This document shows positions 8,088-61,271 of a stretch of DNA of 64,000 nucleotides, in pieces. Position 1 is the first letter of the stretch; each line of letters begins with the position of its first letter. The DNA is from Fragilariopsis cylindrus CCMP1102 (taxonomy: Eukaryota; Bacillariophyta; Bacillariophyceae; Bacillariales; Bacillariaceae), in assembly GCA_900095095.1 (NCBI GenBank), contig FMBT01000323.1, positions 248,001-312,000 on the forward strand. The letters are read 5' to 3'. The notes beneath the pieces were generated by a model that worked only from the letters and a program-made list of their open reading frames with translations, made no database searches and was not told where the DNA came from. Both the position numbers and the translations under genes were made by a program.

Positions 8088-9612
8088 TTACATGCTACCC
8101 CTTCTAAGGTCTGGTTGTTGTTGTCGTCGATCAATTTTTACTACTTCTTTAATTCGTTGATATATTTCTTCAAATGACGGTCTCTTATTCGGATAAGTTT
8201 GCCAACAGTCCTCAATTAACCTTCTTGTTATAGGGCAAGAGATGCGGGTTAGCTTAGGATCATGTTATCTTCAACGAGACGACGATTGAATTCCTTTTAT
8301 CTTGATGATTTTTGTTTTTACCGTATGCAATTGTTAACGAACAAAGCTCGTAAAGAATAATTCCAAATGAATAAACGTCTGATTTGAGCGAGTATCCTTT
8401 ACCCGTCATTAACGATGGGTCCATGTACCTAGTTGAGTGGAGAGAAAAGAATAACGAAGGAACAAATCTCGTGTTAGAGAAACAGTCAAATAATTGTTGT
8501 GAAACGTTATTCGTCCTTTGTAATCATATTATGTCATACCTTGGCGAACCACAGATATCATCATTGTCGCAATCTTCTAATTTACGTGCCATCCCAAAGT
8601 CGAAAAGACGAACCGTTCCTCCCTCATCAAATCCGATGTTTTGTGGTTTTAGATCACGCATGACGATACCCTTTTCGTGTAGGTATATCATCCCTTTAAC
8701 TATACCAAGAGCGACGTTTTCCATACGTCCGTACATCTTCTTGATATTCAGCTTAGGTTTTGCTAATGACCATTTGGTCTCATATGAAGCTTTTCTGGCA
8801 TCCTTTCTCCATCGTTCTAACCTATCACTTAAAACTTCTTCCAATAGATCCAATATGAGAAAGTATCCCTCCTCCGTGTCATCTGTAAACGATTGCGAAA
8901 AAGATGTAGAACATATACCTTTCAGTTTGATTATATTTTTATGATCGAGTTCGCTCAAATGCTTTGCTTCCATAGCAAAATCAGTAGCAGCTTTAAGTAG
9001 TGTTTCTGGATCTTTAATGCGTTTCGGGTTCAATGACTTTAGGGCGAAGTTCTCTTTTGTATTTGAGTTTGTTACCATACAAACATCGGCATAACATCCT
9101 CGACCGATGAAGCAAACTTTACTGTAGTTATTCCTATCTACTCGTTCGATAAAAGCAGTTCGATTTGTAGATTGAGAAGAAGATGAGGAGGAGGAGGAAT
9201 GGTTCTGATGATGGCAACCAATTAAGTCAAGATCGTCATCAAATTTTTCTAATTGCAATACAGCCTTGGGAGTTGCAAGAAGAGAAAAACTTGAACACGA
9301 CGAAGAAGAATATGCATCGTCCCCGCCCCAATCAGTTGTGTTGGAATCGGATCCATTATTCGTCGTCTGAGTAATAACTGGTGATACCAAAAAGTTAGCA
9401 CTCTTGCTCGTTCTAAGGATAGTTTGCGATTGAAGAGGCGGTAATAACGAAGTATTGTCAACTAACGGTATCAAAACATTACTACTACACCTCTTAATTC
9501 TTCGTACACGTCCAAGTACCCACGAAGCAGAACCACTTTCTTTCTTTTTACTACTACTGCTATTGACCGTAGGTGACAACGATGATGTCGAACTTCTACG
9601 AAGTTGTTTCAT
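8088..9612 (-). CDS. Ser/Thr (TKL-like) protein kinase, frame-broken in the last exon
   Basis: Exon 1 (9612-8540) encodes a Ser-rich N-terminus and a kinase domain from about residue 160. The Gly-rich loop is VCFIGRGCYADVCMV, the ATP-binding Lys lies in FALKSL, the catalytic loop is MRDLKPQN (the HRD His is replaced by Met) and the Mg-binding motif is FDFG. A 111-bp GT-AG intron (8539-8429) splices SPR to YMDPSL, giving the P+1/APE-equivalent region. Exon 2 continues SDVYSFGIILYELCSL. The frame then breaks near 8296, EFNRRLVEDNM follows in the next frame, and it breaks again near 8260 before PKLTRISCPITRRLIEDCWQ. The last piece ends RRGSM at the stop 8088-8090. Both breaks need one extra base. 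With them repaired, the C-lobe (DCWQTYPNKRPSFEEI) is complete. The gene is either a recent pseudogene or mis-sequenced. Confidence 0.8.
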
Positions 9613-10191
9613 TCTAAAGAGAACGAACTACTGGTTTAGTAGTGTTAATATTTTTGCTTGATCGATGTAAACATTTTTGTAATTTTGTGTCTGGTTTATT
9701 ACTGATTACTACGGTTTGTGATCGTTGACTCATAATGTTCGCTTTTTTATTTTCCCTAACCCACCTACTTATATTTTTTGGTCGTATTAAAAAATACGTG
9801 GTCTTTGTATATATTGCCTTAAATAGATACAAAGAGAACAATAAAACGACGATACTATTTAGATGATTTGAAAACATTGCTACGTAGTGATAAAAACTGT
9901 ATTTCCTTACTTCCAGATAATACCTGTCTTTTGATAGTGCCATATTACCATTCAACCACGATACTCTTTAAACGATTGAAAAAAAGCTGGCTACGTAGCA
10001 TATGAGAAATTAAGTTCGAAAGAGAACTAAAAAGTACGTACGCGTCGCGTTATTCAATTTCTCGTCGTTTTTTGACGCATGACAATATCAGGACCCTCCC
10101 TATATCGTACTTAGGGATTATCTTCAACATACCGGTTATAGTATTTGAATTATCATGGAAACAAAATAAGCACAGTTAGTTAAAGAATGTT

Positions 10192-10414
10192 CTCCTGGGG
10201 CAAGAAATTTTTGAAAGAGAATACAAAAATTAAGTAAATTAGTATGGCGAACGAAGCGCAGCTTTTAAATATCAAGTTATATAAAGGAAATTAGTACTTT
10301 AGTACTCCTGGGGCAAGAAATTTTTGAAAGAGAACAGAAAAATAAAGGAAATTAGTAAGGCGAGCGAAGCGCAGCTTTTAAATATTAAGTTATATAAAGG
10401 AAATTAGTACTTTA
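10192..10414. repeat. Tandem duplication, 2 copies of about 113 bp
   Basis: Copy 1 (10192-10304) and copy 2 (10305-10414) both begin CTCCTGGGGCAAGAAATTTT and contain GAAGCGCAGCTTTTAAATAT, then TTATATAAAGGAAATTAGTA. They differ by a few substitutions and small indels, so the duplication is fairly recent. Confidence 0.85.
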
Positions 10415-10898
10415 TTCGCGTCGTCTGTGGTTGTAAGTCGCGTCGTACTCTACAGTTGGTCGTAGTAATTGTACAGTAATCACGAATTATCAAAAACATA
10501 CATAATATAAGCTTCCAAAAAACCTACTAATATATAGTGAACGGAACAACTGAATTTTCCTAAGTACTGGAGGCAAGAATCCGAAGAAAAAGTCAGAATC
10601 TCAAGGACTTGGTTGCTAACTTTTGGGTCTCTCCTAATAATAATGGCAATGGCAACAAGACGAACCAAGAGTAATGAATCAATCGAAGCTCTCAAGAAAA
10701 AAATAACAAGAATGGAAAGTGAAGAACCTGCACGACTACTATGACTCATCAACAGAATTCGAAATGGTTGAATGCATTAGAGGGATGTGGACGAAGATCC
10801 TCCTCTATAACTGGAACAACAGGAACAATTGGTAGTCCCTTATTAAATACCAAAATTATTCCCATCGATTGATAATATACTTGCTATTGAAAAAAAAT

Positions 10899-10900
<2 letters not shown>

Positions 10901-10929
<29 letters not shown>
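10901..10929. repeat. TG dinucleotide microsatellite
   Basis: An uninterrupted TG run of 14.5 units. Confidence 0.95.
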
Positions 10930-10931
<2 letters not shown>

Positions 10932-12221: not shown

Positions 12222-13051
12222 TCAAAGTGTCGGTGGAATAAAACAAGCAAAATAGAAGCAAAGAGACTACAGTATGCAACAACGACTTTTTTTCCATGTC
12301 ATTTCGATCTGTAATTTGTTCACCTTCCATATTATGGAACTTTCTGCTTCAAGTCGCTGTGTACCCTGCAGGTACCAGTACCCTGGTGCTGTAGAATTCT
12401 AAAAAGATACATTTTCTGACTGCCTTCTTTCCGGTTGGCCACCAGACGAAGGGACTAAGGTACACTAATTTCCCTTCATTTTTTTGTTTTCTTTCTTTTA
12501 AATTCTCTTTTTCAATTTAGCTCGTTTCAAGATTCACATTTTGCTTGTTTAACTAATTTTTCAAACGTGGATTTATTTGCTTTTTAAGCATTTGCATTCC
12601 GCTAGAAGTACATATGACATGACATGACACGGCCGACGATAGAGCAAGCCATAATTTTTTTAAATTTGAATACTGTGTATCATTCCTTTTTATTCCATTC
12701 GTCAATCGTGATACTGTGTATGTGAAAATGTATCTTTTCTAAATACATTACAGTACTTACAATCTACCGTAACTCTACAGTATTCCTCCGTTAGATACAC
12801 TAACCCGAACACAACGCACATCAAACGGTACACAGGAGTTGCCGGTCGTAGGTCTTTACAATTCGTAGATACAACACTGTACATTTTGCACACAACTAAC
12901 TCGGTACAGTACGTTTGCATTCCATACAGGACTAGACTAACCGCAGTCAATCATTCTAATTGTCTTACAGTATTATTGATGATAGGGCAGAGCATTCATA
13001 TAAGGAGAGAAACAAACGAACAAATAATATAGAAGAAGAAATATTATTATC
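12222..13051. other. Intergenic, nothing recognised
   Basis: AT-rich, with a short CATGACATGACATGACAC repeat near 12615. No coding or RNA signal was seen. Confidence 0.5.
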
Positions 13052-15312
13052 ATGATAATGCCGCATTTTAAAACTACTACGGCTGATGACGCAGACGCTG
13101 ATGCCGATTGCGACGGTGACGGCAATAAGGGTGGATTCCAGCATGATACTCAATATCATCAACCACCAGGAGTAGGAGGACAAGCAGGAGGTCAACGAAT
13201 AACAACACGTCAACAACGTCAACAACGACGATTCAAATATTATAAAGTAGCAGTATGGTTACCAATAGTAGTAATAACAATATTTTTGATAATGAATCGA
13301 TATCATCAATTATTAGAACAAACTAATTTAAGTTTTGAAGAATTAGAATATCATGATTTATACACGTATATTGAACCACCGACAGCGGCAGTAGTATCAG
13401 TATCTTCATCGTCATCGTCATTATTTTCATCGTCATCGTCGTCGACTATTACTACGTCATCATTAACTACCAATAGTAGTAGTAGTAGTAATATTAGTAG
13501 TAGCAAAAGTATAAAAATAAATTGGAAGAAGAAGAATGGAACGACGACAACTACTGATAGTAGTAGTAGTAGTAAAAGTATCAAAATAAATTGGAAGAAG
13601 AAGAATGGGACGAGTAACACGACTAGGTCGGCTATTACGTCATCATCATCATCATCACCTACTACTAATAGCAGTAGTAGTAGTAGTAGTAGTAGTAATA
13701 ATAGTAGCAAACCTCTAAATACGAAAAAGAAGAAGAAAAGGAGGAAGAAGAAGCATACTACTACTACTACTACTGATGATGAAGCAGCTTTTAGTTATAA
13801 TACTACTTCTGGGTTTGTATTATGGAGAAATTATAATGCAAGTATAATGTCAGATGGGAATTTAATGATTGAATTTTTTAATTCTAGTACTACCAACAAT
13901 GATGATGATGATGATGATGTAAAAGAACAAACTCAAAAAGCTCCAACCCAAGCAGGAACCAATAATAATGCAGATGCAGGTTTTTCAGCATGTTTAATCA
14001 ATTTAGAAGATACCATACGATTAACTGAATGGATACCCTATCATTATACAATATTACCTTTGACGTCATTAGTGATTGCCATCGATCCTAAAACATCCGA
14101 ATTGGGTCTCAATCGAACTCTTCGTCTAATAGAATTATGGTCGGACAAAGTTCAAATCACAGTATGGCCTTCGTACAAATTACCACCATCGAAACGATTT
14201 CGACCAGAACAATCGTATATTCGAGAACGACAAGTCTATTTTGCAAATTCATGTTTAAAATATCATTCTACATATACAGATCGATCTTGGACCTTATTAA
14301 CAGATAATGATGAATATTTACTCTATAATTATCCACATCTGAATGAATACGTCGATGATGAACATGAAAGAATGGTACTACTAGTATTAGTATTGATAAA
14401 GGGGAATACATTCACTATGATCATCCATCGTATAAAAAGAAAAAAATACAACAAGAAATTGAATCGAATCGACGGAAATATATGCATTGGAGATTTCCTA
14501 CTGGAAACAATAATCACACTAGTAACAATAACACTATTACTGAAAACAGTACTGAAAACAATAATCAAAATACTAATAATCATAGTCCAAATAATCAAAA
14601 TACATTACCAATGAAATTAAATCGAACAATATTTCAATTTATAAAACAAAACCAAGATCAGTTACAATTACCAATATGTGTTCGTATACCTGGTATACAT
14701 TATGGTGGTAGTGTTGTTGGCAATGCACCAGCAGCAGCAGTATCGTATTTAGATTCCATGTCATCATCACCATCATCGTCATTATCATCATTGTCCTGGT
14801 TAACGTCGTTATCATCAACGTCGTCGTCGTCGTCGTCATCGTCAAAGTCGTCGGTTGATAATATATTTGACTACTATTGATCCAAATTTATTATCCACTT
14901 ATCGATATATCTATCATGAAAAACGGAAAAGTAAGTTCAGTAAAGTGATGATCGATGTCAGTCGTATACATACAACTACTACTTCAATTCAAATTCAAAT
15001 AGTACTGGACATGTGTTAGATTGGTCCAAAATAATCATGCAAAACTATTCATAATCCAATCGAATCTTATGTGGTTATAATGGTGTGGTTGATTCCGGTA
15101 CGGATTATTATTCGAGTTTATTTCGTGTCAATCATTATATTGGTAGTGTCCAAGTTATTTAGAACGAAAAGAGGATTATCGTTCTAGAAGTATGGAATTA
15201 TATCAATATAAATTCCAAAAAATTATTAATGTGACGAAAATCCCTATTATTATGATTATGATATTTACCATGGATGGATTTATTTATACAAATGTCATCA
15301 TAATATCACATT
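13052..15312 (+). pseudogene. Type II membrane glycosyltransferase-like (GT92/DUF23-like) gene with several frame breaks
   Basis: The first frame (13052-14373) has an N-terminal anchor (about residues 65-81, AVWLPIVVITIFLIM). A long Ser/Thr/Lys low-complexity stem with a repeated SIKINWKKKNGT unit follows. The catalytic-type region begins near residue 308 (ACLINLEDTIRLTEWIPYHY). A DxD-like motif, LLTDNDEYLLYN, lies near 416-427, where this glycosyltransferase class binds nucleotide-sugar and metal. At 14374 the frame shifts by -1 and the chain continues (GTTSISIDKGEYIHYDHPSY, HWRFPTGNNN, LPICVRIPGIHYGG). It shifts again near 14850 (TTIDPNLLSTYRYIYHEK, SKVMIDVSRI), near 14985, and near 15160 (LFRVNHYIGSV joins SYLERKEDYRSRSMELYQYK). 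The order of blocks fits one ancestral gene. The end at 15312 is approximate. Assignment to GT92/DUF23 is from memory of motif layout. Confidence 0.7.
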
Positions 15313-16837: not shown

Positions 16838-18753
16838 CTACAGTAAAGTATTTGGACATATCTGTGCATTCTTTTCAGATTGGATACCCCATGATTCTTC
16901 GACATAGACATATTTACATTGGACACCGGAGAGTTTAGCAGCAAATGCTGCATAATATCCAACACCATATATAACACATTTTGAATACATTGTGATATAT
17001 AAATCAATAAATGTACCATAATAGGCATATGGTTCACGACCCTTTTGACGATCAATATGTGTATTTTCTAATGTCACATTCCTAGAACGTATTAAATAAT
17101 TATTATTATTATTATGACCTTGATTATCACCAACACTATTACCACTAACGGTATGAACAATATCATATAATGGTGGATATATTGAACTGATATTATTTTT
17201 GTTTGTTTCTAAATATCCACTAGATGTAGTATCATATAATTCAATTGATACATGTTTCACTAAATCATTCGAATCGGATAAGAAATAGATTGGTGGTTGC
17301 TGTGTGGTAACATTTGAATTATTAGTAATTTGTATTGCACATTGAAGTGCGGAGGTGGCAATTTCTAATGCAAATTGACGTTCCACACCACCAATCATCC
17401 ATGGCAAACCAGTCTTATCAGCTGGATATCTTTGATTGATACCAAGTGTCGTTTTACCTTTGGGATGTGCTTTGGGATGTCGGACACGACAATGTACTGC
17501 TGTATAATTTTTCACTTTGATATTTTTATATCTACTAAGTCTACTGACTCCTCATTTACTACTGACTCTGAATCATCTGCTGAATCAAGTTCCAGTAAAT
17601 TCATTTCTTGTAATGATAGGATAATTTCTTTTTCCACTGCAGGAGATGGTATAAAAAATAAATTCCAGATAGTACCAAATGTGGGTGTAGTATGTAATTG
17701 TTGTGGTGTATGCTTGTCATCATTATTGTAATATCCTTCCTCAAATAACAGTTTTTCTAATATAGGTTCATCTAAATGACCTAATAAACGATGACGTAAT
17801 ATTTTCGCATTACGATATTTATTCGAGGTGGTACCAGTAGCACTTGCTCTTTTTAATGATTTTTTAAAACCAATCGTCCAGAAATTTTCGTCACCCGGAT
17901 GATCTTCCGGATACCCATCAAATAATTCGGGTATATAACTACGTACGGTACGTATATCATTAAAACCAAACTTTTGTGACGATGGTATAGTCCAATCGAT
18001 ATATAAAGGCTGGTCTTTTCCTTCAGGTAGATTTGGTAATGATGGTTTTTGGTTCGGTGGTAATAAGAAATTTTCTAATGATTTCGGTCGTTGCCATGCT
18101 ATTAATAAAACACGTTGTAATTTCGAAGCTAAATAGATATCAAATGGTAATTGTCCTAATCGATCATGTAAGCCACCACAAATCCCTAAACAGGTCCGCA
18201 CTAATAATTTGGGTGCTTCCTTGTTAGTAGAATTAAATAAAGCATCTCCAGGATATAATTGACGTTGTGTTTGATGCCATTTCACATAATCGACTATCCA
18301 TTTTGGTAGTAAATCATTATTATTATTTTTATTTTGATCATCTACTTCTTTCTGCTGTTGCATCTGCTGTTGTTGTACCTGCTGCTGTTTCTGTTCTTCT
18401 TCTCCTTTCAAAGTCGTCATCGTATTACTGTTTTTGTCAGACTTCAACGATGATGATTTCGACATTGTCAATAGTAACGAAGAAGAAGAAGAAGAAGAAG
18501 AAGGCACGTTATTCTTCTTCCTGTCGAATTTAGTTGTAAATACTACTAGTGATATTATACATATAACAACAACAATCAGTGGTATATACAATAATCGCAT
18601 CAATAATTTATCTTTTGTCTTTTTTGTTTTTTGACGGATTGTGTCATTATATAAATTAAATTTTCTTTGATTCTGTTGTTCACTACAAGTACTCCCATCT
18701 TCTGATATTGATGGCAGCGATGATGACGTAGTAGTTCTTCGTTGCTTTACCAT
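16838..18753 (-). CDS. O-fucosyltransferase-like type II membrane protein, one frame break
   Basis: The first frame (18753-17512) encodes 413 residues and the second (17515-16838) continues for 225. The cytosolic tail (residues 1-50) is followed by a membrane anchor at 51-72 (MRLLYIPLIVVVICIISLVV) and a Gln/Lys/Ser-rich stem. The lumenal domain starts VRTCLGICGGLHDRLGQLPF, then VLLIAWQRPKSLENFL and YIDWTIPSSQKFGF. The frames meet at the overlap GTGA: DIKISK stops, while VKNYTAVHCRVRHPKAHPKG runs on in the -1 frame, so a single missing base in an A-run would fuse them. The second part has GLPWMIGGVERQFALEIATS and PPIYFLSDSNDLVKHV, then near its end AYYGTFIDLYITMYSKCVIY, a layout like GT65/68-type fucosyltransferases. 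A Golgi location is inferred from topology. Start chosen at the first Met of the open frame. Confidence 0.7.
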
Positions 18754-19696: not shown

Positions 19697-20916
19697 CTAG
19701 TAGTGCCTGCTAATACTGGTCTTGGGAGTTGTTGTTGTGGTGATTCTACTTACTACATCTACTGAATTATTATCAGATGATGCTGCTGCTTTTTTTCTAG
19801 ACCAAACTACGAAGTTTTTTTGTTTCAGTACTAGTAGTATATCTTCATCATTCACTGTACAATAATTTTGTCTACATGTTGGACATGGATTATCACTTAC
19901 ATTCAGTCGAGATTTTATCTTACGTTGTGCAGCATGTGATGCTAAGTAATTGACCATACATTCCTTATGATGTATATGAGAACAATTTGGATCTTTTGAC
20001 ACCAAACAATTATATCATCTTTTATAAATTTTTCAAAACATACAATACATATGTACCATCACTACTTATCATTTGTTGTTCTTTATTGTCTTTATTATCT
20101 TCATCAGCAAGGTGAGTACTACTCGTCGTGACAGCAGTCAATCCACTACCATGTTCTAATTCTATTGATAAATAAATTGACGGATCATCATCATCATCGT
20201 CGTCGTCGTCGTCGTCATCATCGTGTTCTTCAACGTCTTCGTCTTCGTACTCTTCATTGTAATTGTTACCTTTGCTACCGAGTTCGATATCAAGAAAGAT
20301 GGAGGAATTTTTATTTTCACTAATACTACTGCCACACTCGTGAATTGATTTTGATGACATTGTCTTTGTCGTCTTTGTTTTAATATGTTTATCTTCTAAT
20401 ATTAATTGATTCCCATATTTGAATCAAATGTTTTATTATATAATTCGATACGATCTTCTAATGAAAATTTTGGATTTAATCCGCTATTACTACGACTGAC
20501 GATTATGTCACTATTACTGAGATCATGATTATGATGATGATTACCGCCAACTTCAGTTCCAGTTCCAGTGGTTCCGTTGTTAATAATACTAGCATCTTCA
20601 CCGTTATTATTATTATTATTATTATTGGCGTTCGTAGTAATATTATTTATCGTCCACGACTCAAATTTTAATTGTTGTTGTTGTTCTTTATACGAATTTG
20701 CAATAATCTTATAAATAGTATAATAATAAATGCAATGATTAAAAATGATAAAAATAATGGACTGCTGTATGCTTCTGCTGCATTGGTATAAGTAGGTGAT
20801 GTAGGTGTAGTAGGAGCTAATGACGATGCAGCAGCAGCAGAAGCTGCTGCTGCTGTAACAGGCGTCGTACGAGACGTCGTCGTGTTATTACTGTTACTCA
20901 TTATTGTATAATTCAT
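19697..20916 (-). pseudogene. Membrane-anchored RING-finger (E3 ligase-like) gene with frame breaks
   Basis: The layout reads as one gene from Met at 20916 (or 20901, MSNSNN). An Ala/Thr-rich N-terminus is followed by a membrane segment (LFLSFLIIAFIIILFIRLL). The frame breaks near 20687 and continues EQQQQLKFESWTINN through GLNPKFSLEDRIELYNKTF. It breaks near 20414, then gives NQLILEDKHIKTK and the acidic block ending at DGTY. It breaks near 20050 into CIVCFEKFIKDDIIVW, and breaks near 20002 into SKDPNCSHIHHKECMVNYLA and NPCPTCRQNY. The joined cysteines and histidines (CIVC, CSHIHHKEC, CPTC) form a C3H2C3-type RING. Every break needs one added base. The family transfers ubiquitin from E2 enzymes; anchoring suggests a membrane target. 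Confidence 0.7.
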
Positions 20917-25108: not shown

Positions 25109-25190
25109 CTTCCTCCGTGCAACTGAAAGTGTCGCGCGGGCTATCGCGTGAAAATTTAGCTAGTGTTATTAACACGTTCAACGGTCAATC
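25109..25190 (+). repeat. Left terminal inverted repeat of the mariner-like element
   Basis: 82 bp. It pairs with 28691-28769 with only a few differences, mainly at the TAGCTAGTGTTATTAAC segment, which is TAGCGCGTAATTAAC on the right. Confidence 0.93.
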
Positions 25191-47430: not shown

Positions 47431-50400
47431 GTGTGCCTAGTAGAAGCTGACGATACGATACGATACGATATGAGCGCAAGTATCACAACAACGAAAACGA
47501 CAACATCTACATCCACATCTACATCTACTACTGTCCAAAAAGTACTGAATGTCGCTGCTACTCTCGCCAGTAGACAACAGTCGTCTGATGACAGTAGTAA
47601 TAGCGTTCCTCGAAAAAAGGTGGTCGCTTTTGTGGCTGCTAAATTTGAGGGACAAGTCATGGGTACCTCCACTTTTTCCTGTGCCTTGACCAAATTGAAA
47701 AAATTACACTTGATCACCTTTTCATCGAAATCGATTGAGGTCACCGACCAGGGGATGAGCCAGGCGAAAATTTATACTGAGACTGAAATGATGAACGACT
47801 ATGACTATGACGAAAGTAATAGTAGTAGTAGTAGTAGTAATACTATACATGATATTGTATTCCACAAAAAGAGTTTAGGAATAGGTGTATGTAGGACTAG
47901 TACTACAACAACAAGTACTAGTAGTACATCCGGTAATACTACTACAGGAGTAATACATGAAATTATTATTTCGAAAGTAGAAGTGGTAGTAGAAAATGAT
48001 ACAACTACAAATACACAACATCAAATGGAATTAATTGGAAATAATAATATCAATGCTACTACGCCTCTTCCTTTGATTGGTGATAAAATTCTATCCATTG
48101 GTACTATAAAATTATGGTATAATATAAGAATGAAAGATATCAAAGCCATTATTCATTCCAGTATCAAACGTCCATTAATAATTACAGTATCTAGAAGAAA
48201 TAGAAATCGACAAAGTAGTAGTGAAGCAATTAATAATCATAATAGTATTCAAGTATCAAGAAACAGAAAACGAAAAAGAAAAGCAGCAATTAATAATAAT
48301 ACGAAAAGAATCGTACAAGGGAGAGTACAAGAAGTACAAGTACAAGTACAAGAACGAGCAGCAACAATGGATGAACAGATCCTTGCCGTGATGCTTGGTT
48401 TCATATGAATAATGGTAATCCTCCCAAAAAGGTAACGGTACAGGATGTGGCCATGGAACTTGGAATACATGAACGTAATAAAGCCTTTCGTGAACGATGG
48501 AGTATTCTAAAGAATCACAAGGGATGTACCGGTACATCCAACAAGATTTCTGGTGTTGCAGGACTCTTTGAATTAACCCAAGCAGGAATCGAACACGCAC
48601 AACAGACCGACGAATACAAGGAAAGGTTGAAGGAGATGAATAATATCAAATCCAAAACCAACTGTGAGCAGCATCAGGAAGAAGTACACGGAGGAGTACA
48701 AGAAGGAGTACAAAGTGGATGCAGGAGTATTAGTGGGGAAGATGATGATAATGATGATGGTTCACAATCAACATCATTATCATTATCATTACCATCATTA
48801 GCGGCGGCGGTTTCGACGTCGACTTCGTCGTCGGTTTCGTCGTCGGAGCACAAGAAAGGAACTACTATGCCATTGTCATTGTCATTGTCATTGTCATTGT
48901 CATCCAATAAAGAAACAGATAAAGATAAAGAAGTTACTATTAATCAGGTAGTGGCGGCAGAGGCAGTTATACGTAATCGCGGCGGTTGTGTGTGGGATCC
49001 TACTACTACTACTACTACTGCTACTGCTGCTTATATACAACGTCAACGTCATCATCAACTTCAAATAACACAAAATCAACAACGTCAACGTCAACTTCAA
49101 GAACGATTATTATCAATACGCAGTAATAATGAGTTAGAATGTATTGATTGTGGTCGTGAATTTGAGACAAAGATGGGTCTTACTACGCATCAATCACAGT
49201 GGTGTAAAGGTAGTAGTAGTAAAGCAAAAGAAAAAGAAAAAGAAGTTACCATTAATCAGGTAGTGGCGGCAGAGGAGGCAGCTACACGACGTCAAGAACG
49301 ATTATTATCAATACGCAGTAAGAATGAGTTCGAATGTAATGATTGTGGTCGTGCATTTGAGACAAAGAGTGGTCTTACTACGCATCAAACACAGTGGTGT
49401 AAATATAGTACTAGAAATAATAAAAATAATAAAGAAAAAGAAGTCACTATTAATCAGGTAGTGGCGGCAGAGGAGGCAGCTACGCGATATGATGATAATT
49501 ATTATTATAACAATCATCAGCAGCAGCGCGGCGGGTGGTGGTGTGATCCTGCTACTGCTACTGCTAATGCTAATGCTAATGCTAATGCTGCTTATATACA
49601 ACATCAACGCCGTCATCAAAAAACCTTATGCCAACATCGTCGTCAACGTCAACATCAAGAACGATTATTAGCAAGAACAATACATGAACAACAACAAGAA
49701 CAACAACAAACTCTAACCCAACAACTGCAACAACTACAACAACAACAACAAAGTTATAATAAAGTACAACAGCAAAGTAATAATAAAGGACAACAACAAT
49801 ATTATGAAAATCATACTTATCCTAATCATTTTCATGGTCATAATCATAATTATCGAGAAGCAGCAGAAGCAGAAAAGCGAAAAGAAGGGCAAGAAGAAGT
49901 AGATCAAGAGCAGCAGCAGCATATCCACATTACTACACCATTACTAGCACTATATGAATCGAAAGAGAAACTGTGGCCACAGCAATTACTAGCACAATAT
50001 AAATCGGAGGCAGAGAAATATAAAGAAAAACAGCATCATCAACAGCAACAGAGAAATCAACAGCAACAGCAACGATATAAAGAAAGACACCAACAAAAGC
50101 AGCACAGTACTCCTACCCCATTACAAGCACTATATAAATTGGAGAAAGATCAACAACAACAGAAAGATGAAGAAGAATTAGAATATCAAAAACTGTTACA
50201 ACATCAACAGCAAAAACAGTTGATGGAGCAACAACAACAGCAACAGCTGGTTCAACAGCTCATGCAACAACAACAGCAACAGAATCAGTCATCGTGGGCG
50301 CAGGCGCAGGCAAAGATGCAGGCGCATGCACAGGCACAGACTACGCAGCAATTAGAAAAAGAAAAAGAAATCATTGATGCAATAAATATAATCACCAAAG

Positions 50401-52352
50401 AGAAAGAACAATTGGAACGTACTATGAAATTAACTCAAGTACTTTTACAGCATCAAGTAGAGGAAGAGCAAGAACAAGAACAAGAAAAAACACAACAGCA
50501 AGAACAAGAGCAGCAGGATCAGGAGCAGCATCAGCAGCAGCAACAACATCAACAACAGCATCAACAACAGCAACAGTACCACATCGCTGATCCAAATGAG
50601 AATGATGTTCTCTGTGGTCGTGGTCCACGCATCAACAGACACGCTGGAAATGTGCAATTTAGAGATATCATTCACTCGAAGAAGAAAGAATATTTAGCCC
50701 CATCCACACAGAAACTAGAAAAACCTCCTATCACAGCTGGCATCGTCAATGATATTCGTACTATGGACCCACCTGGACGATTCTTGAAAGAAGACAAAGG
50801 TACCGGATTATGGTTTGATATTGGTGAAGCGAAGGCTAGGGAGAAGACTAGTCAAGCACTCCGGGATCTACAGAAATATTCTGTCGACAACAAGTCTTAT
50901 GCGAATATGAATACGAATATGAATACGAATATAAATGCGAATGGTATGAATATGAATGCGAATAACATGAATACGAATACGAATGCGATATCAACAACAC
51001 TGTTGTCACCGTATCAACAGAAGGAAGAAAAACAACTGCAAAGTCAACTATCAACGCTGTTTTCCCTCCAGCAAGAACAGCAGCAGCAGCAACCGCAAGA
51101 ACAAGAACAACCGCAAGAACAAGAACAACTGCAAAGTCAACTATCAACGCTGTTTCCCCTCCAGCAACAACAGCAGCAGCAGCAACCGCAAGAACAAGAA
51201 CAACCGCAAGAACAACCGCAAGAACAAGAACAAACTGATAATAATTATGACAATGGCAATAACGATGACGACGTGCTTATATTTGCTGCTAGTTTTAATA
51301 CAAGACAATTAGGACTAGACGTTGAATGTGGTGGTGATAATAATAATAATGATAACAATGATGTTATTGTTGCTGTTACGAGAGTTAAAATCGAAGAATA
51401 TAAAAATATAATTTATCCAGGTGATATAATAATTTCAATAGGAAGAATTCAACTAAAGAATAATAGAAATATAAAATCAATTGATGATGTTTTAACATTA
51501 ATTTCATCTACAACTGAACGACCATTAATAGTTGAATTTTCAAGATATCGGAAACGAATTCGAAAACAACAAGTGGATCATGGTGGTAACAGTAACAGTG
51601 GCATTGTAGATGAGATCACAACGACATTGGCGAAGGAAACAAATAATGACGTCGACGTCGATGAGGATGATTGTTGTTATCAGCAGCAAAACTATGTAGA
51701 AAATGAATCATCAAAAGTTGCGGCAGCAATGGTTGTGATACCTATGGGTTGTAGTAATGGTGGCGGTGGCGGTGGCAGCATTGGTGGTCAACAACGAAAG
51801 GAAACGATGAAAGCTGATGCATTAGGCGAAGAATCTATCAAAACTACAGCTGCAGTAGCATATCATTTAAATCCCGTTCAATTACGTATACTTCTCGCTT
51901 CACAGCAGGACTCATCGGATATATTCAAAGATAAGATCCCCACCCCCAAAAATCGCAGCGGTATAATATCAGCTAAAAATTGGCGACGAGAAGAATTGAA
52001 ACGTTTGGGGATGACGGAAGAAGAATGGTGGATGAAGAAACAACCAATACAGAGATCAGAGGATATATTCAAAGATAAGATCCCCACCCCCAAAAATTGC
52101 AGTGGTATAGTATCACCTAAAAATTGGCGACGAGAGAGTATCCACACAGATTTGGAACTGAAAGACCAACCAGATAAAAATAGCGGTGATGCTTCTATCG
52201 GTTCTGATGCCGCTACTCCTACAGCAGCTGCTACAGCTACTGTTACCGGTTATTCTACTAGCATTTCTAATTTCATCACCACCAACGAAGCAACAGCTGG
52301 AACCGAAGGCTCTGATGATGAAACTTTATCGTGTTGTTCAATTACTATTTGA
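47431..52352 (+). CDS. Giant poly-Q regulator: winged-helix-like, PDZ-like, zinc-finger and DUF6824-type domains; one frame break
   Basis: Two frames abut through the overlap ATGA at 48405-48408: 47431-48408 (325 codons; likely start Met at 47470) and 48405-52352 (1,315 residues). The first has a winged-helix-like block (RKKVVAFVAAKFEGQVMG) and a PDZ-like domain with PLIGDKILSIGTIKLW. Its tail, DEQILAVMLGFI, runs straight into MNNGNPPKKVTVQDVAMELG of the second, completing a second winged-helix-like block, so this is probably one gene missing one base. The second frame adds two C2HC zinc fingers (about 244 and 308, CIDCGREFETKMGLTTHQ), three copies of a KEVTINQVVAAE repeat and long Gln runs. 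The DUF6824-type domain (about 728-815, PNENDVLCGRGPRINRHAG) follows, then a second PDZ-like domain (about 955-1050) and a twice-repeated DIFKDKIPTPKN block. Likely nuclear; the DUF6824 type is frequent in diatoms. Confidence 0.75.
48931..49487. repeat. Three coding repeats of a GAAGT(T/C)AC(T/C)ATTAATCAGG unit
   Basis: Copies near 48931, 49241 and 49440 share the following GTAGTGGCGGCAGAGG. Two are followed by a zinc finger, showing duplication of a repeat-plus-finger module. Confidence 0.85.
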
Positions 52353-53867
52353 TATACAGCACGGGAACAAACGCGAGATCGTATTTGAAATTCATAGAGC
52401 TATAGAGGTGATTCACAGGCAGCTACAGTGTAGGGTATATTATAGTTCGAATAGTATTAACAGTACACAAGTTACTACTCTTAAAAAACTTTTATCTTTT
52501 GTGACGTATACTGAGAGGAAATTCTACACTCTCTTTCAATTAAGTAGTTTCAAAGCCATCATTATTTTTCATTGTTGTGGTAGTATCGTATGATTCATTC
52601 AAACGAGATACCAGCACATATGTCGAGTCTTGATCGCCACCACCATCATCGACTTCTTTTGTAATAGATGTATCATTACTATCGCTGTCATCAGAACAAT
52701 CACTGTTTCTTTTCTCCCATTCAGCAATCTATTTTCTTATCTCTTCATTGATACCCTTTAGTGCAGTCATGTGCGTCATCTTTCTTCTGTTACTATTATA
52801 TTTAATATGGAGTATAGAGTTGAAGATAAGTTTATTAGTATGAGAATATATCTGGACAAAAAGAAGAAAAAGCAGACGCTTAAACGAGACGGAAGTTTTC
52901 TCTCGTTGTTATTTCTTACCAATGGATGTTAAGCGAGAAGCGACGAAATATCTAATAGAGCAAGAATTGTTTTGGTTCATTTCATTCCAATTCTTTTCGT
53001 TTCGTTTCATTTCGTTTCGTTTTTCGTTCTACTGTACTTACACTTGTGAAGTTATTACTGTAATGACATAATGCACAGTAACAATAAATAACAGAGATAA
53101 AAATTAATATCATCACTTTAAAATCACAAACAAACAAACTTGACCAGTGAATTCAATCGTAATCTTCGGTCGCACAAGAAGAAGGACTTTAGAGCAAGGC
53201 AAGGCCTAGTAAGGAATATTATTCAAACGTGTTAAAAAAAGAATAAACAAGAAATCTAATGAGGGGGCGTCACCACGATATTACATATCCAACCCCCTCC
53301 CCCGTACGCAGAAAGCAGGGTCATCCTCCAGAGCAAAGCTCTGATGTTTTATTTCGCCCTTTGTTTACAAATGCAAGAAGAAGCATGAAAAACTTCACAA
53401 CATTTATCGGCTGTTCTTATTTATTGAATGGAAAGAATGAATGAATCTCGTCTTCACAAGATGGTACATTGTACAAAAAGACATAATTCTCGCTATCATA
53501 TTCCAATATAGAACACAAACACCACCTGCTTCGTTTGACCTTGAACTTCACACACAAAAAACACAACGCAACTGACTTTACTAACTAGCTACGTAGCTAC
53601 CGAAAACCGAAAGATACAGTAGATCATTGGCATGTATATAGTCCGTTTACATCATTGAACCGTTTCCTACAAGAAAAGTGAAATAGAAATAAAGAAAGAG
53701 ATTAAGAGAGAGAAAGAGAGAGAGATTCAAGAGATAGTCAGTCAAGAGAGATTGAAGAGAAAGAAAGAGAAGAACGAAAGGAGATAGAGCGGAAGAGAGA
53801 TTCATCGAACGAAATTCCTCCGCAGTAAAGTCCAAATCCAAATCCAAGTTCAAGTTTACGCAGTGAA
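52353..53867. other. Intergenic with a decayed coding remnant
   Basis: No intact gene. The minus-strand remnant 52540-52779 is listed separately. Pentanucleotide TTTCG repeats occur at 52997-53028 and GAGA-type sequence at 53698-53790 just upstream of the channel gene. Confidence 0.55.
52540..52779 (-). pseudogene. Short coding remnant with in-frame stop
   Basis: From ATG 52779 the reverse strand reads MTHMTALKGINEEIRK, a TAG stop, then IAEWEKRNSDCSDDSDSNDT through LNESYDTTTTMKNND and a final TAA at 52542-52540. The acidic Ser/Asp-rich composition on both sides of the stop looks like diatom coding DNA. It could be a decayed gene or the end of a longer one. No family recognised. Confidence 0.35.
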
Positions 53868-56024
53868 ATGGTGCTGCAACGCAATATGTCTCTATCATGG
53901 TTGGGGGAACAAGCTCAATCCCAATTCCTTGATCGGAATTTAGAAAATCATGAAAAAAGTCAACAACGAGACGATCGCGATCATCATGAAGGTTGTTCCA
54001 GTTCCGATTCACGTGGATCAGGTGATGGTGGTGGTGGGTGGTGGTGGTGGATCATTTGGATCCCAAAAATCATTCCCATCGTATCAGAAATTGAATTCCT
54101 ACAATTCATTAGACCTAAATAATTATGATGAAAAATACACAATCCGTCATCAAGTTATTGTTTGGAATGTCGGTACTCCTGATGTCAAAAACAACCGAGT
54201 ATCACTTATGTTTCGTGTCACATTATTCTGGAATGATCCTTTACCGCCGAAACCACCATCATCAATAGAAAAAATACCATCCACATTAGATGAAGCATTA
54301 AAGGCAGCAATGGCAGATTCAAATGCCAATGCCAATGCCAATGCGTATGCGAATGCGAATGCGAATGCGAATGTGAATGCGTATGCGTCAGCCTATGACA
54401 ACACCTATGACATTACTACGAAAGGAAATGGCAGTAGCCATGACAGCAACAAAGATGATTCTGTTTGGGTTATGGAGGGACGGAATAAAGCTGTACGAAA
54501 AAAAACAAGAACTGAAAACAAACGTGAAAGGAACAGAAGTAGAAGTAGAAGAAGAAGAAGAAAAATGAGCGAAGATAAAAATAATGATTTCGAGGATGAT
54601 GAGGAAGACGATGAAGAAGATGAAGATGAAGAAGAAACAATTGATGTACCACCAGTATCAATAATAAATGCCGCTGATTTTGAAATCATAGGACGACCAG
54701 ATATAACATGCCTTCGTTATAATAATAAACCATCATCATCATCATCGCCATCACATTCATCACAATCACATTCATCAAGCAATACAAGATTAATGAGATT
54801 TTCGTGTATGTATCGTGCATCCTTATTACAGGAAGCACATTCAATGAATGTAGCACAATTTCCACATGATACACATGATTTAATTATGAAGTTAGGTATA
54901 TTAAGTCAAAGACAACCAAATGGACGATGGGATCGTCGAAAATGGAAATTAGGTTTAGCTAATGAATCTGATACACAGGGTAGTATTAGAGTACCATATG
55001 GTGTATTAGTGGATCATGTAGCTGTACCTGGTTTTCAAATATCTGATCGTGGATTAGAATTTGAATTATCACCAATTGAATATGGTAATAGTAAAACAGG
55101 TGGCAGTGGTAGTGTAGTGGCAGTAGTAGTAACGGTACTGGTGGTACTAATGGTACTATTACTACTACTAATATTAGTAGTAATGAAATAACAAATCAAC
55201 AAAGAGTTATGACACCATCCAATTCAAATACATCATTATCAACATTCTTTGAAGATGAAGATCATGATGATCCTCAACACCAACAAAAACAAAATCAAAC
55301 AACTCAGAAACTTTTGAAACAGCCAGACAAACAACAATACGGAAGTTTTATTCAGAATAACTTTCAACAACAACGTCCAAATCCAAATAAACAACAACAA
55401 CAACAACAACAGAATCAAAATCAAAATCAAAATATTGATGATCAAGATTTTTGTGTCAAAACAAAAATTCGTGTCAAACGTAATTCAGCCTATTATGATC
55501 GTAATATAATGCCATTATTGGATATATTAAATCTGGTATCAATTTCTATATTGGTGGCAATGGATGCCACAAATTTCTTTCAACGTGGTTTAATGTGTTT
55601 AAATATCGCATTTTTAGAAATTGGTTTAAGGACCAGTTTAGATGCAAGATTACCAAGTGTTGGATATGAAATTAAAATGCAAAAAATATTAAATTCCTAC
55701 TTTTATTCTATATTATATATTGTATTAGAAAGTGCAATAATGAAAGTATTATTAGATAATACTAAAGATAATGATCATACATATTGGACATTAGAACGTA
55801 CAAGATATACTGATCATATAACTGCATTCCTACTATTAATAAATCAGTTTTATTTACGTATGATTATATATAAAGATTTTTCAAATAATAATAATAATAA
55901 TAACAACAACTATGAAATACATCATCATCCATGTCAAATACTAATAACAGCACTAACAAAAATAGTACTAATGCTAGTGGTAAGGGTGATGGTGATGGTG
56001 ATGAATTTAAATGATTGGAGATAA
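53868..56024 (+). CDS. Pentameric ligand-gated ion channel-like protein with frame breaks
   Basis: Three frames join into one protein. The first starts MVLQRNMSLSWLGEQ (53868) and runs to a Gly-rich stretch near 54040, where the frame moves by one. The extracellular-type domain follows: YTIRHQVIVWNVGTP, RVSLMFRVTLFWND, a low-complexity insert, then YRASLLQEAHSMNVAQFPHDTHDLIMKLG. The FPHDTHDL block occupies the position of the FPFDxQxC segment of the Cys-loop family but lacks the Cys pair. Near 55114 a single base is missing, and the chain continues through a poly-Gln linker to KRNSAYYDRNIMPLLDILNL (TM1), LVSISILVAM, and the M2/M3-like NIAFLEIGLRTSLDARLPSV (LPxVxYE pattern). The last helix is HITAFLLLINQFYLRMI. 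A further -1 shift near 55915 would alter the tail. Such receptors gate anion or cation flow; the ligand is unknown. Prokaryotic-type members also lack the Cys pair. Confidence 0.65.
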
Positions 56025-56537
56025 AAAAGTCTAAAATATGAAACGTGACATTATTTCCTCTCACGATAAAAAAAAGGCACGCCGAAGCCATAACTTACTG
56101 AAAATCTTCTTTTGAAAATTGTTTTTTTTGCAATTTCCACTCGCTGGAGGAAGTACTAAGTTATGTACAGTTGTGGACCTCAAATTAGAAATTAAATCCA
56201 TGTTATACTGTATATAAGATGTCTCATTTTCATTCGTGATTTTCTTCTCCGAAGCGTCAGTGTCACACATTTGTTAATCGCTCGTGCTGTTTTACGAAAA
56301 TCATAAATTAATAAAAAAAAATTGAACTAAGAAACAAAAACTACTGTACATAAATACTATTATAGAATAGGACCACGACTGAATTCATTAATTAATAATA
56401 TCTGTCACGACTAAGTTCATTATTTATTTTCTTGAGCTTTTCTGCTTCATCCTAATACACGTTCTCATTAATTAATAATATGGTCAACAAACAAACAAAC
56501 AAACACAACACCAATAATTGTTATCATTATTAACACT

Positions 56538-56759
56538 ATGAATTCCAGCGCCAAATCATTTAGGCAATCCTCTTGTCACAGCAGGCATAACAAGAATTGG
56601 CAAGAATCAGAATCAGCATATGATAGTCCATTAAACTCATCAGCTAATATTGCAGACGACGAAGTCTACATCTAGGTATTATTCGGATCTCACGACAATG
56701 ACAATGACGAAGACAATGACGGACGACGACGAATGATGTATGTTTAAAGCGTTCTTATA

Positions 56760-56796
<37 letters not shown>

Positions 56797-57240
56797 TAAT
56801 AGCACAACAAGTCCAATGCATGGCAGGACTTCAAGTTGGTCGATGTTGCCACCATATGTGCCTTCCGGAATAGTAGTATAAGTATGCCAGTATATCAGCA
56901 GATCTATCTATTCATAAGAATTCATTTCATCGACTAGGATTACCGTCACAATATCCTGACAGACTCGACCAAAGCAGCAGCAATAGTAGTTTTGAAAGTG
57001 TTCTTCTCGAAGAACTAGAAGACTTTGATGATATTTTCGGTCGGCCATCATCATCTGAATCCTGACAGACTCGACCAATAAAGCAGCAATAGTTTTGAAA
57101 GTGTTCTTCTCGAACAGAGCTAGAAACACTTCGATGATATTTTCGGTCGGCCATCATCTGAATCGAATCGATTTCTGGGGAAAGTTGAGACAAATCTCGA
57201 TGATAATTTGTTAATAATTAAATCCGAAAGACTTTACCCT
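56538..57240 (+). pseudogene. Decayed acidic Ser-rich protein gene with internal duplication
   Basis: 56538-56675 reads MNSSAKSFRQSSCHSRHNKN through SSANIADDEVYI and a TAG. Further along, a second coding-like stretch (about 56918-57062) reads NSFHRLGLPSQYPDRLDQSS and ESVLLEELEDFDDIFGRPSS before TGA. Its last 106 bp are then tandemly repeated in degenerate form. Frames differ and stops intervene. No family recognised; I read this as a dead or exon-fragmented gene. Confidence 0.35.
56955..57165. repeat. Tandem duplication, about 106 bp
   Basis: Both copies contain CCTGACAGACTCGACCAA, TTTTGAAAGTGTTCTTCTCG and TTCGGTCGGCCATCATC. Copy 2 carries stops where copy 1 is open. Confidence 0.9.
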
Positions 57241-57779: not shown

Positions 57780-58639
57780 TTATTCCACAATAACACGTAT
57801 CATCACATTAATTTCTTTTGTTAATGCTACCTTCAATTGATATATACCTGTACGTTTAATAGTTAATTTATCTGATTTTGGTAATGATTTGAATGTAGTA
57901 GAAGGAGTTGCGTTGTCATCATTATCATCATCGTCGTCATCATCATCCTTCCATGTTTTGAATGCGGGTTTGTCATCAGCAACTTTCTCCATTTCTTCTT
58001 CTTCTAATACATCCACAATAGATACTAATTTCGTATGTTCTTTGGAATATAGATCAAATTCATTACAATCTAATTTTAAGGCATCTAATAATTTTTTGGG
58101 ACCAATACCACCAAATAATTTTAATCCATCTGGTCCTGTTTGATTATCTAAAAATGATAATGTATATTTTTTTTACGTTTCTTCTTCAATTCCTAAAATT
58201 GTACTATTGTAGTTGCTTCTTATTACATTGTTTAGTATTTTCTTGTTTATTTTCAATATCATTTTGTACTTCATCATCATTAATTTTTCTTGCTAATTTT
58301 TGTGGTCGTAATTTATTATCAAAAAATATGGGATTGACCATAATCACATCCCCGCCTGTCCTGTTCCTGCAATATGTTGTAATAACTTGACTTGTATTTT
58401 ATTGACGGAACTATTACTAATGGTGGTATCCTTTTTTTTCTTTTTACCAAATAATGCTGTTGTACTACTAGTACTCTTAGTCGTTGATGTCATTGTACGC
58501 ATCGGCGTTGTAATTGTTGTTGTCGTTGTTGTCCATGCTGTTGTTGTTGTCGAAGGGATAGTATTGCCGTTGTCAACAACAACGACAACGACAATAAAGC
58601 ATTTTTGCTTATCTTATTATGACTATTATTTGACGCCAT
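57780..58639 (-). pseudogene. Organellar ribosomal protein bL9 gene with at least four frame breaks
   Basis: From Met at 58639 (MASNNSHNKISKNALLSLSL) a signal-like leader breaks near 58558 and continues IPSTTTTAWTTTTTT and SSTTALFGKKKKK. The mature part follows: NKIQVKLLQHIAGTGQAG, a break near 58351, then DVIMVNPIFFDNKLRPQKLA. Breaks lie near 58225 and 58208 around EATTIVQ and ILGIEEET. There is an in-frame TAA near 58175, then KKYTLSFLDNQTGPDGLKLF, GGIGPKKLLDALKLDCNEF and an acidic insert. The C-terminal strand is LTIKRTGIYQLKVALTKEIN. The order and spacing match bL9 (N-domain, helix, TGPDGKLFG, C-domain GIYxVxVxLH). In the family it binds domain V of 23S rRNA. Each break lacks exactly one base. 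The protein was probably destined for a plastid. Whether this is a pseudogene or mis-sequenced is unresolved. Confidence 0.75.
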
Positions 58640-59169
58640 GTTATATCTCTCTACCTTGCTTGCTGCTGTCGAATTTGAATTACTGGAGCTCAATAATGAT
58701 GATGTTTTGTTTCGTTGCTTGCCGTGAAATAAAATGATGTCTGTACCGTACATCATCGGCTGGTTGGCTTGTTTTTGTTTGATGTTTTTGTGTGTCTGCT
58801 TGCTTGCTTCACAAGAGAAAGATCTTTCAACGACATCTTGCTCAATCTCTCTCTTTTCCTTTTTTCTTTTCTGCCTCAGCCAATCACTCAACTCACATTT
58901 GTCGCGCGCAACCGCACGTGAATAGATTTCTTTTTCGTCTCCTGATGGAAATCCTGATTTATTACACGTGGATGGTCAGAAATCAATTCGAGGTCCAAAA
59001 TAAATGTCGTTCGTCGCTTCATTGTCTGCTTTTTTACCGTATTTCTTCTCGTTTTTCTCGGATTCCCATTAATAGATCTTTGCTTGATCTCCAACACAAG
59101 AAGCAGACACAACAAGATCGAAAATAAAAAAACATACACACTGTACCCAAACAAAACAAAACCAAGCAA
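58640..59169. other. Short divergent intergenic region
   Basis: Separates the bL9 locus from the methyltransferase gene. Probably holds both promoters. No motif I can defend. Confidence 0.5.
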
Positions 59170-60099
59170 ATGAAAAGCAAAAGTAGAAGTAGAAAAACAA
59201 ACAAAAAAGAATCAAGTATACAGCCAAAGCGAAAACCAAAAAAAGCCAAGATGGTGGGAACTACTATTACTACTACTACTACAACTACTACTAAAAGTAA
59301 GGATGTGAATAAGACCGGTGGTGTACAAACGGATGAAAAGAAACAACATTTTGATGATATTTATATTTGTGATACACCCGTACCCTATAAGATTCGTATC
59401 TTAGATGCCTTATCATATGTCAGTGATGATTTTAATCAACAAATGTTTGAAGCACATATTGCACCGGTCTTTGAAAAAAAAAGTAGTGCTGCTAATACAA
59501 AAACGATTAATTATGTTGATTTATGTTCCTGTTTTGGTAACACCACAATGGCAACATTACATGGTATGGGGTATGAAGAAATTCGTGACAATTGGAGTAA
59601 TGAAACACGTTGTATGACCATTGATAAACCACGTCGTACATTTAATGATCAAAGTACATCAGTAACAGCAATTGATATATCACCACAAGCAATGAAATAT
59701 GGTAAAACTGTTGGTTTATATGATACCACAATTGTATGTGATTTAAATAATCGTACTTCCAATGAATTTAAATTAACAAAGGAGGCCATGTCCAATGCTG
59801 ATATTATTATATCTACTGCATCATTAGTATATTTGGAATTAGAGACCATTGCAGAATTAATGGAAGCTTTTGTGACTGGTGGGAGTGAGAATGGGATGAT
59901 GTTAGTAAATTTTTTAAATCCATTTGCATTAGAAAAAGCAGATGCCACGAAACGTATACTATTGTCAAAATTAGATTTTGTTGCATCACGTGCCACACGT
60001 CATCGTCGAATGTCCAAATTAGAACAAGATAATTATCCTGGTGAAGAATGGTCACTATTAGAATTATGGGTATTACAAAAAAAGAAGAAATCGAAATAA
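59170..60099 (+). CDS. SAM-dependent methyltransferase-like protein
   Basis: One clean frame of 309 residues. The first 60 are basic and Thr-rich; Met27 (MVGTTITTTT, 59251) is an alternative start. The core begins FDDIYICDTPVPYKIRILDA. YVDLCSCFGNTTMATLHG (about 117-134) occupies motif I: the usual DxGxGxG is replaced by DLCSCFGN. Further class I features are TAIDISPQAMKYGKTVGLYD (motif II acidic loop) and IVCDLNN, then ADIIISTASLVYLELETIAE (motif IV region) and GMMLVNFLNPFAL. A Lys-rich tail closes it. The fold assignment is inferred from motif order; no substrate can be named. Unlike the neighbouring bL9 locus, its frame is intact. Confidence 0.65.
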   Translation: MKSKSRSRKTNKKESSIQPKRKPKKAKMVGTTITTTTTTTTKSKDVNKTGGVQTDEKKQHFDDIYICDTPVPYKIRILDALSYVSDDFNQQMFEAHIAPVFEKKSSAANTKTINYVDLCSCFGNTTMATLHGMGYEEIRDNWSNETRCMTIDKPRRTFNDQSTSVTAIDISPQAMKYGKTVGLYDTTIVCDLNNRTSNEFKLTKEAMSNADIIISTASLVYLELETIAELMEAFVTGGSENGMMLVNFLNPFALEKADATKRILLSKLDFVASRATRHRRMSKLEQDNYPGEEWSLLELWVLQKKKKSK

Positions 60100-60602
60100 A
60101 TAAATTCGAAAATAAGTCGAAATTGAAATAAGTAAATTCGAAATAAGTAAATACCAGGCAGACGATAAATAAAATAAATATTCAAAACTTTCGGACTGAT
60201 CGATTTACACTTAAATTGATTTGTCGATTGCGATGGCGATGACAGATACACATACTATAGTTAATACAACAAAACGAAACAGTAATAATATAAATAAACA
60301 AGACAAGACAAGACAAGACAAGATAAGATAAGATAAGATAAGACAAAAGTGCCATTATACTATATTATACTATTCATTATTATTAAACCTAGCGTATATG
60401 TAGTACTGTAGTCTTGCTTTTCTTTTTGGATTTTGCTTTCGATTGATTCTATTATAATTTAATTCAATTCACTATTATTATTATTTTTCGTGTAGCTTTT
60501 CTGCCTTTACATCATCATCATGTTCGTTTCAAGTTCCAGACTTTTTTCGTTTCGTTCCGATGCGATGCGACCGTACATGATATAACAATCATCTCAACGA
60601 TC
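60100..60602. other. Intergenic with AAGAC/AAGAT repeats
   Basis: Pentanucleotide repeats AGACA and AGATA at 60297-60345. No gene was seen. Confidence 0.6.
60297..60345. repeat. Pentanucleotide microsatellite AGACA/AGATA
   Basis: About ten units of 5 bp; the first half ends in CA and the second in TA, which suggests conversion of one unit type to another. Confidence 0.9.
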
Positions 60603-61271
60603 ATGGCAACTTTGTATACCAGAAATCAATCAGCGCATAGCCTACTCAATAGTAATTGTGAAAATGATCGTCTGATTTCCTTTTTAGAAAAATCAGGAAA
60701 GGAAAAAGATTTGTTCGTGGGCATCTCTGGCGGTAGAAATAAATGCCGAAAGGTAAAACCCCTAATGCCAGAAATCCCGGTAAAAGCAGGGATTATTATT
60801 ATTCTGCCAGCTACTTCCAAGGATAAATGCCACGATCGTAGTACGCCAGCACCAATATACTAAAAGTTGGTCCGATTATGATCCTAAGTATCTATATGAC
60901 GGACGAGATAAAGGGTTACTACGTGGGCATATATAGCAGTAGAGAAAAGTCGATGCAAATTTCAAGACAGAACAGCACTATTAGTAGCATTTCGTTTTGC
61001 CAGATCACATACGACTACCGTATGAATTTGATTGTGAAGAGGAAGGTGAAGATGTCTTAACCGAGTCACCTTTGGAACCATCTTTTTGTTGGGGATGTTT
61101 TTTCCTACAGAATCACCTTCGGAATCACCGTCAGTACCACGTGATCACTACGAAAATGATCCATTATTTCGTTTCAGAGGAAGCAATGGATTAGACACTA
61201 CCGATATTTCTTCTTGGGCATTTGCTAATCCGAAAGAAAAATGCAAAGGAAAAACAACCTGGTACCGGTAG
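60603..61271 (+). pseudogene. Decayed coding locus, pieces in several frames
   Basis: Coding-like peptides appear in order but in different frames: MATLYTRNQSAHSLLN and DRLISFLEKSGKEKDLFVG; MPKGKTPNARNPGKSRDYYY then SASYFQG; KSWSDYDPKYLYDGRDKGLL; EFDCEEEGEDVLTESPLEPS; and FPTESPSESPSVPRDHYEND to SSWAFANPKEKCKGKTTWYR and a TAG at 61269-61271. The last two pieces are separated by a -1 shift in a T6 run near 61100. No family recognised. The same kind of frame breaks occurs in bL9 and RING. Confidence 0.45.

Follow-up and report, generated by a model that had tools for sequence, protein, structure and literature searches.

The closest described parallels to genes whose reading frame shifts repeatedly in one direction are of quite different kinds. 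In Euplotes, ribosomal frameshifting is genome-wide, and its sites lie at stop codons. Insertional RNA editing could restore single bases in transcripts, although we know of no nuclear precedent for it in diatoms, no search aimed at one having been made. A further parallel is the residual insertions and deletions (indels) of assemblies made from long reads alone, such as that of the diatom Fragilariopsis cylindrus, for which PacBio reads were assembled with FALCON and polished with QUIVER (PMC5634323). The subject of the present analysis is a window of 64,000 nucleotides in which several genes are interrupted by frame breaks. It covers bases 248001-312000 of C459, a contig of 382 kb that belongs to an assembly of 67.9 Mb and 818 contigs. 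We conclude that these breaks are very probably consensus errors of a PacBio-only, self-polished diploid diatom assembly, and that they are most likely an artefact rather than a new mode of gene reading.

The genes in question are as follows, the names marked as such being those of a first-pass annotation of the window made from the sequence alone.

8088..9612, minus strand: protein kinase gene with one intron, its frame broken near 8296 and again near 8260.
13052..15260, plus strand: glycosyltransferase-like gene (first-pass name), with a detector join at 14368 (base missing) and, on visual inspection alone, breaks at 14850, 14985 and 15160.
16838..18753, minus strand: O-fucosyltransferase-like gene (first-pass name), broken near 17514, with a detector join at 17529 (base missing).
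19700..20899, minus strand: RING-finger gene, broken at four places (about 20694, 20416, 20051 and 20001).
47431..52352, plus strand: large regulator-like gene, broken near 48400, with a DUF6824 domain (99 bits) in its second part.
53830..57061, plus strand: channel-like gene (first-pass name), where the detector reads a missing base at 55115 and 55916 and an extra one at 54038 and 56879.
58000..58891, minus strand: bL9-like ribosomal protein gene, with detector joins near 58354 and 58498.

The most direct evidence as to the origin of such breaks comes from elsewhere in the assembly, which contains more than 20 near-identical contig pairs. Ten of these were compared over the best alignment of each, together spanning 89,568 columns (89.6 kb). 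Mismatches between the members of the pairs numbered 55, whereas gaps numbered 116, and 96 of the gaps were a single base long; natural variation is not expected to yield more one-base gaps than substitutions. At the extreme, L023 and L024 showed no mismatch and nine one-base gaps. Furthermore, the gaps were neither evenly spread nor evenly shared. Patches of three or more accounted for 83 of the 96, with the larger patches mostly one-sided: L010 lost 16 bases within 272 bp, and the first 1.1 kb of the L019/L020 pair contained 14 losses in L019 against three in L020. In 78 of the 96 cases the base was absent from the shorter contig, which held for the majority in each of the seven pairs with such gaps.

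These patches have visible consequences for genes. L020 carries an open DNA-polymerase-X frame of 376 codons, with the DNA polymerase lambda fingers and beta palm domains, and L019 is fragmented at the same place; within this frame, L019 has 14 one-base losses and L020 has two. Similarly, five joins of the missing-base type that were called in one member of a pair only fall where that member lacks one base relative to its partner. Three more joins were called in one copy only: one lies away from any gap, and two fall at a single ambiguous place in L017/L018. The assembly thus carries patches of one-base losses, both in genes and between them, and a gene that is open in one copy can be fragmented by such patches in a near-identical copy. 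Three of the ten pairs (L011/L012, L013/L014 and L015/L016) are identical over 5.9-9.9 kb, which implies that some sequence is counted twice in the assembly. Paired contigs therefore provide an internal yardstick of error that is independent of outside data.

Within the window, frame joins were called by a detector that combines a 3-periodic fourth-order Markov model, trained on long open frames, with a seven-state Viterbi path, and that made no use of the first-pass list of sites. In the main setting, with the window left out of training and a join probability of 1e-4, it found 11 joins in 30.6 coding kb. Nine were read as a missing base (14368, 17529, 20412, 20712, 48400, 55115, 55916, 58354 and 58498), and two as an extra base (54038 and 56879). 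The number of calls depends on the setting: with the window included in training, there were 10 joins at 1e-4, seven at 1e-5 (six missing, one extra), and none at 1e-7. Planted changes revealed no directional bias of the detector, which recovered 106 of 114 losses and, of as many gains, 109, none with the wrong sign.

The first-pass annotation had listed 17 sites breaking in one direction, including two called probable (58225 and 58208) and one in a locus called decayed (61100), of which 12 find support here, eight from the detector and four from homology. The eight, each with a join within about 60 nucleotides and in the claimed direction, are 14374, 17514, 20687, 20414, 48406, 55114, 58558 and 58351. 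The detector misses the other nine, and it adds two joins outside the list, at 55916 (missing) and 56879 (extra). Homology accounts for 8296 and 8260 in the kinase gene and, through intact paralogues, for 20050 and 20002 as breaks in the RING gene. In the glycosyltransferase-like gene, 14985 and 15160 are plausible by eye; no detector join falls at either, and the paralogue that was fetched ends short of both. No support was found here for 58225, 58208 or 61100, and the region at 61.0-61.3 kb lies outside every coding call. Of two breaks said to run in the opposite direction, that at 54040 is confirmed by the detector (54038, extra), and that at 14850 is seen by eye only.

It was also proposed that each break needs one inserted base. 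This agrees with the data at 48400 and at 58351 in the bL9 gene, and fails in the RING gene, where at least three sites (20416, 20051 and 20001) have two extra bases instead. Two extra bases and one missing base have an identical effect on the frame, and at the two kinase sites the Pfam scores for the alternatives lie within about 1 bit of each other. The remark that breaks sit in short runs of A, T or G applies in part: among the one-base gaps of the contig pairs, 45 of 96 lie outside any run, and 15 of 96 lie in runs of at least four.

Whether the window is special in these respects was judged, with leave-one-out scoring, against 12 control loci: one copy from each of the ten contig pairs, and the two flanks of the window. 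The controls gave 13 missing and five extra joins in 71.0 coding kb, a rate of 0.25 per coding kb compared with 0.36 in the window (Fisher p = 0.42). The lean towards missing bases was 9:2 in the window and 13:5 in the controls (difference p = 0.68); its significance was p = 0.065 for the window, p = 0.096 for the controls, and p = 0.008 for both sets taken together, in which 22 of 29 joins were of the missing type. The window therefore does not clearly differ from the rest of the assembly in break rate or in lean. The lean itself is modest, and significant in neither set taken singly. In the sampled stretches, coding sequence contains roughly one frame join every 3-4 kb.

The same direction prevails in an unrelated family. 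Four stretches encoding ice-binding proteins (L041-L044, on C445, C202 and C590), selected because they are visibly fragmented, were compared with intact relatives. Against the L037 protein, a single missing base accounted for 15 of 18 joins, the remaining three being a two-base loss, a one-base gain and a two-base gain; against L038, a single missing base accounted for 12 of 16 joins, two missing bases for three, and one extra base for one.

Published data on the F. cylindrus assembly allow the rate to be placed in context. Thirteen Sanger-finished fosmids, aligned over 421 kb, differed from the assembly by 622 indels and 1185 single-nucleotide polymorphisms (SNPs), with indel rates of 0.00-4.63 per kb (0-135 per fosmid) and with indels outnumbering SNPs in seven of the 13 (PMC5634323). 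Part of these indels and SNPs may be haplotype differences. The join rate of the window falls within this range of fosmid indel rates. The same source describes a FALCON/Quiver assembly of 745 primary contigs (59.7 Mb) and 288 alternate contigs (9.1 Mb), with a maximum length of 1.26 Mb, and states that some alternate-contig transcripts have identical copies on primary contigs (PMC5634323), which the identical contig pairs seen here resemble. The assembly under study is probably Fc_falcon_quiver_polished of Fragilariopsis cylindrus.

The near-identical pairs and the fosmid comparison together support the suggestion, made in the first-pass annotation, of deletion errors in a long-read consensus. 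With PacBio long reads as the only data for both the assembly and the polishing of a diploid genome, the consensus would lose single bases wherever read support is locally poor, often outside homopolymers. Such losses would be grouped in patches, from tens of bases up to roughly 1 kb long; each loss within a gene would shift the frame in the same way, so that broken genes would look alike and clustered while genes between patches would stay clean. Poor read support is the presumed cause of the dropped bases, and the sites of the window itself probably arose by patches of this kind. The resemblance to residual indels of PacBio assemblies made with FALCON and Quiver is close, in that one-base losses outnumber substitutions, come in patches, fall more often in the shorter contig and split a coding frame; the published indel rates for F. 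cylindrus also span the rate seen here. The RING gene departs from this pattern at three of its breaks, where it has gained two bases relative to paralogues.

Several observations weigh against attributing the window's breaks to consensus error. The evidence comes from pairs elsewhere in the assembly, and no site of the window is itself proven; when four stretches of the window were searched as DNA, none yielded a near-identical second copy. For 8001-9700, there was none in the genome, nor any other match at all; for 57900-61700 there was none, and for 13000-21500 and 47400-56100 there was none among the best 40 of 301 and of 249 candidates, respectively, these three stretches matching paralogues or short repeats only. 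Seven joins (six missing, one extra) are common to both members of a pair, giving 14 detections that the pair test leaves unexplained, and the DNA-polymerase-X frame of L019/L020 also contains 12 mismatches and one 8-base gap. One-base gaps are rarer in coding calls, where 27 of the 96 fall although 60,415 of the 89,568 columns (67%) are coding; this depletion would fit if a share of the gaps were genuine haplotype variation under selection, or if read support were poorer between genes. Pairs and controls were both picked around strong kinase hits, a choice that favours intact genes. The 818 contigs here match exactly neither the 745 + 288 of one report (PMC5634323) nor the 1028 sequences and 69 Mbp given in another (PMC12159174). 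Finally, the RING gene has gained two bases at each of three sites, a class of change represented by only three of the 116 gaps in the contig pairs.

The RING gene was compared with two intact paralogues, L030 on C538, which has an open frame of 460 amino acids, and L046 on C507, which is open across the 731 bases fetched. A frame-aware alignment to L030 reads each of the four breaks as a gain of two bases in the window, that at 20694 lying in a weakly conserved part. Alignment of the DNA likewise places two-base gaps at 20416, 20051 and 20001; moreover, the residue spacing at these three places, which are conserved, is common to L030 and L046, and the window has two bases more there. Each of the gains at these three sites duplicates the adjoining dinucleotide, whereas the two bases gained at 20694 are not such a copy. 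Pfam scores are mixed: without and with an added residue, respectively, zf-RING_2 scores 28.8 and 27.0 bits, and FANCL_C scores 24.1 and 26.9. The gene is thus a poor fit to the common one-base error, and it is the sole small loose end in the attribution to artefact. Several copies of this family lie near each other on C507 and C538 (L030, L031 and L046), and further relatives occur on C58 and C714 among the matches listed; the window copy (19835-20471) is set apart.

The RING gene is also where real decay, in which some genes, this one foremost, would have been inactivated recently by true mutations, has to be weighed. The intact relatives could make loss of the window copy tolerable, and two-base gains are as rare among the pair gaps as stated above. 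In the RING block, over 77 codons, the window differs from L030 by 20 nonsynonymous and 13 synonymous changes, compared with 14 and 17 for L046, taken as the intact yardstick; against L046, the window shows 20 and nine. Over longer alignments that include the low-complexity part, mismatches of the window by codon position number 49, 22 and 39 in one and 7, 5 and 4 in the other, without a third-position peak, whereas the intact yardstick has one (13, 6 and 29; 16, 12 and 27). However, second codon positions in the block are conserved, with four changes in 77 codons, so that any decay would have to be recent and yet to have struck one gene three or four times. In addition, the bL9, kinase and regulator genes are broken too, and like breaks recur in unrelated genes elsewhere in the genome, where near-identical copies of a gene differ in the break. 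Real decay as an account of the window is therefore improbable, and long decay, which had been offered as an alternative, is unsupported generally and unlikely for the RING gene. For the RING gene alone, we allow a small chance, slightly better than for the window at large, that true and recent mutation in the germline produced the three two-base copies and the fourth gain, also of two bases, in a newly inactivated member of a multi-copy family. If so, these gains would mark a process that makes clustered 2-bp tandem copies, separate from the one-base consensus errors elsewhere.

The two remaining alternatives, both raised in the first-pass annotation, would leave the DNA correct and place the repair in expression. 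Repeated use of programmed -1 ribosomal frameshifting would account for the lean of the joins in window and controls and for coding-like sequence on both sides of them, and it shares with Euplotes in-gene frame changes of mostly one direction. Yet slippery heptamers, in any frame, occur within 30 nucleotides of only three of 14 sites, none closer than 20 nucleotides, compared with 386 of 2000 random window positions, and are thus not enriched. Several broken frames here continue beyond the join, unlike at the stop-codon sites of Euplotes, and breaks vary between near-identical copies: the five one-copy joins at one-base gaps, together with the DNA-polymerase-X frame cut repeatedly in one copy only, are hard to reconcile with a programmed signal, as are RING sites that are +2 relative to their paralogues. 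We consider frameshifting very improbable. Insertional RNA editing that restores single bases in transcripts can draw on the frame lean only. For like joins elsewhere, one member of a near-identical pair has the base in its DNA, so that presence of the break differs between copies, and the RING sites would need the removal of two bases; editing seems more improbable still, to the point of being negligible. Consensus error remains the preferred account of the window, and where gene models of the assembly seem to be split, decayed or frameshifted, they should be given no biological reading without accurate reads.

Among the other broken genes, the kinase is the best defined. Its open frame at 8524-9612 scores 99 bits with the Pkinase model; addition of the next in-frame piece raises this to 128, and a two-exon read-through, with X at both breaks, to 159. 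The intron, absent from the first-pass annotation, is an ordinary GT-AG intron of 111 nucleotides at 8429-8539 (minus strand), between the codons for GSPR and YMDP. Introns were considered as the cause of the breaks and rejected: only that of the kinase gene was found, and the inspected breaks show no gap of intron size.

The regulator-like gene has a paralogue on C479 (L039, 81% identical) with one base more at 48400, where the detector join is likewise of the missing type. For the bL9 gene, the Ribosomal_L9_N score rises from 24.8 to 33.5 bits once the 58351 join is given one residue, so one missing base fits this break better. A second, different bL9 gene is carried by C462. The glycosyltransferase-like gene has no Pfam match; relatives number 20 matches in the genome, the window's own included, and one of them (L047) does not align downstream of about 14458, so that the later breaks are left uncovered. 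Neither half of the O-fucosyltransferase-like gene has a Pfam match at E 0.001, and its relatives within the genome are distant only. The channel-like gene has likewise no Pfam match at E 0.001 in 53950-55191 or 55209-56024.

The gene content of the assembly is diatom-like, with 104 matches to the chlorophyll-binding family and with DUF6824 and PT-repeat proteins. The ice-binding (DUF3494) family has 53 matches; one study reports this family from two sea-ice diatoms and its absence from six non-polar ones (PMC13149256). A comparison of two of the ice-binding proteins with the PDB gave solved relatives, none of them shown to be an identical protein. The guanine-cytosine content of the window is 37%, and its sole transfer RNA gene according to ARAGORN is a tRNA-Gly (tcc) at 62841-62911 (plus strand). 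At 25668-28200 (plus strand) there are two neighbouring open frames, the first with a weak match to a Tc1/mariner-type transposase (Pfam E 0.031, under the curated cut-off), and the short gap between the two may be an intron.

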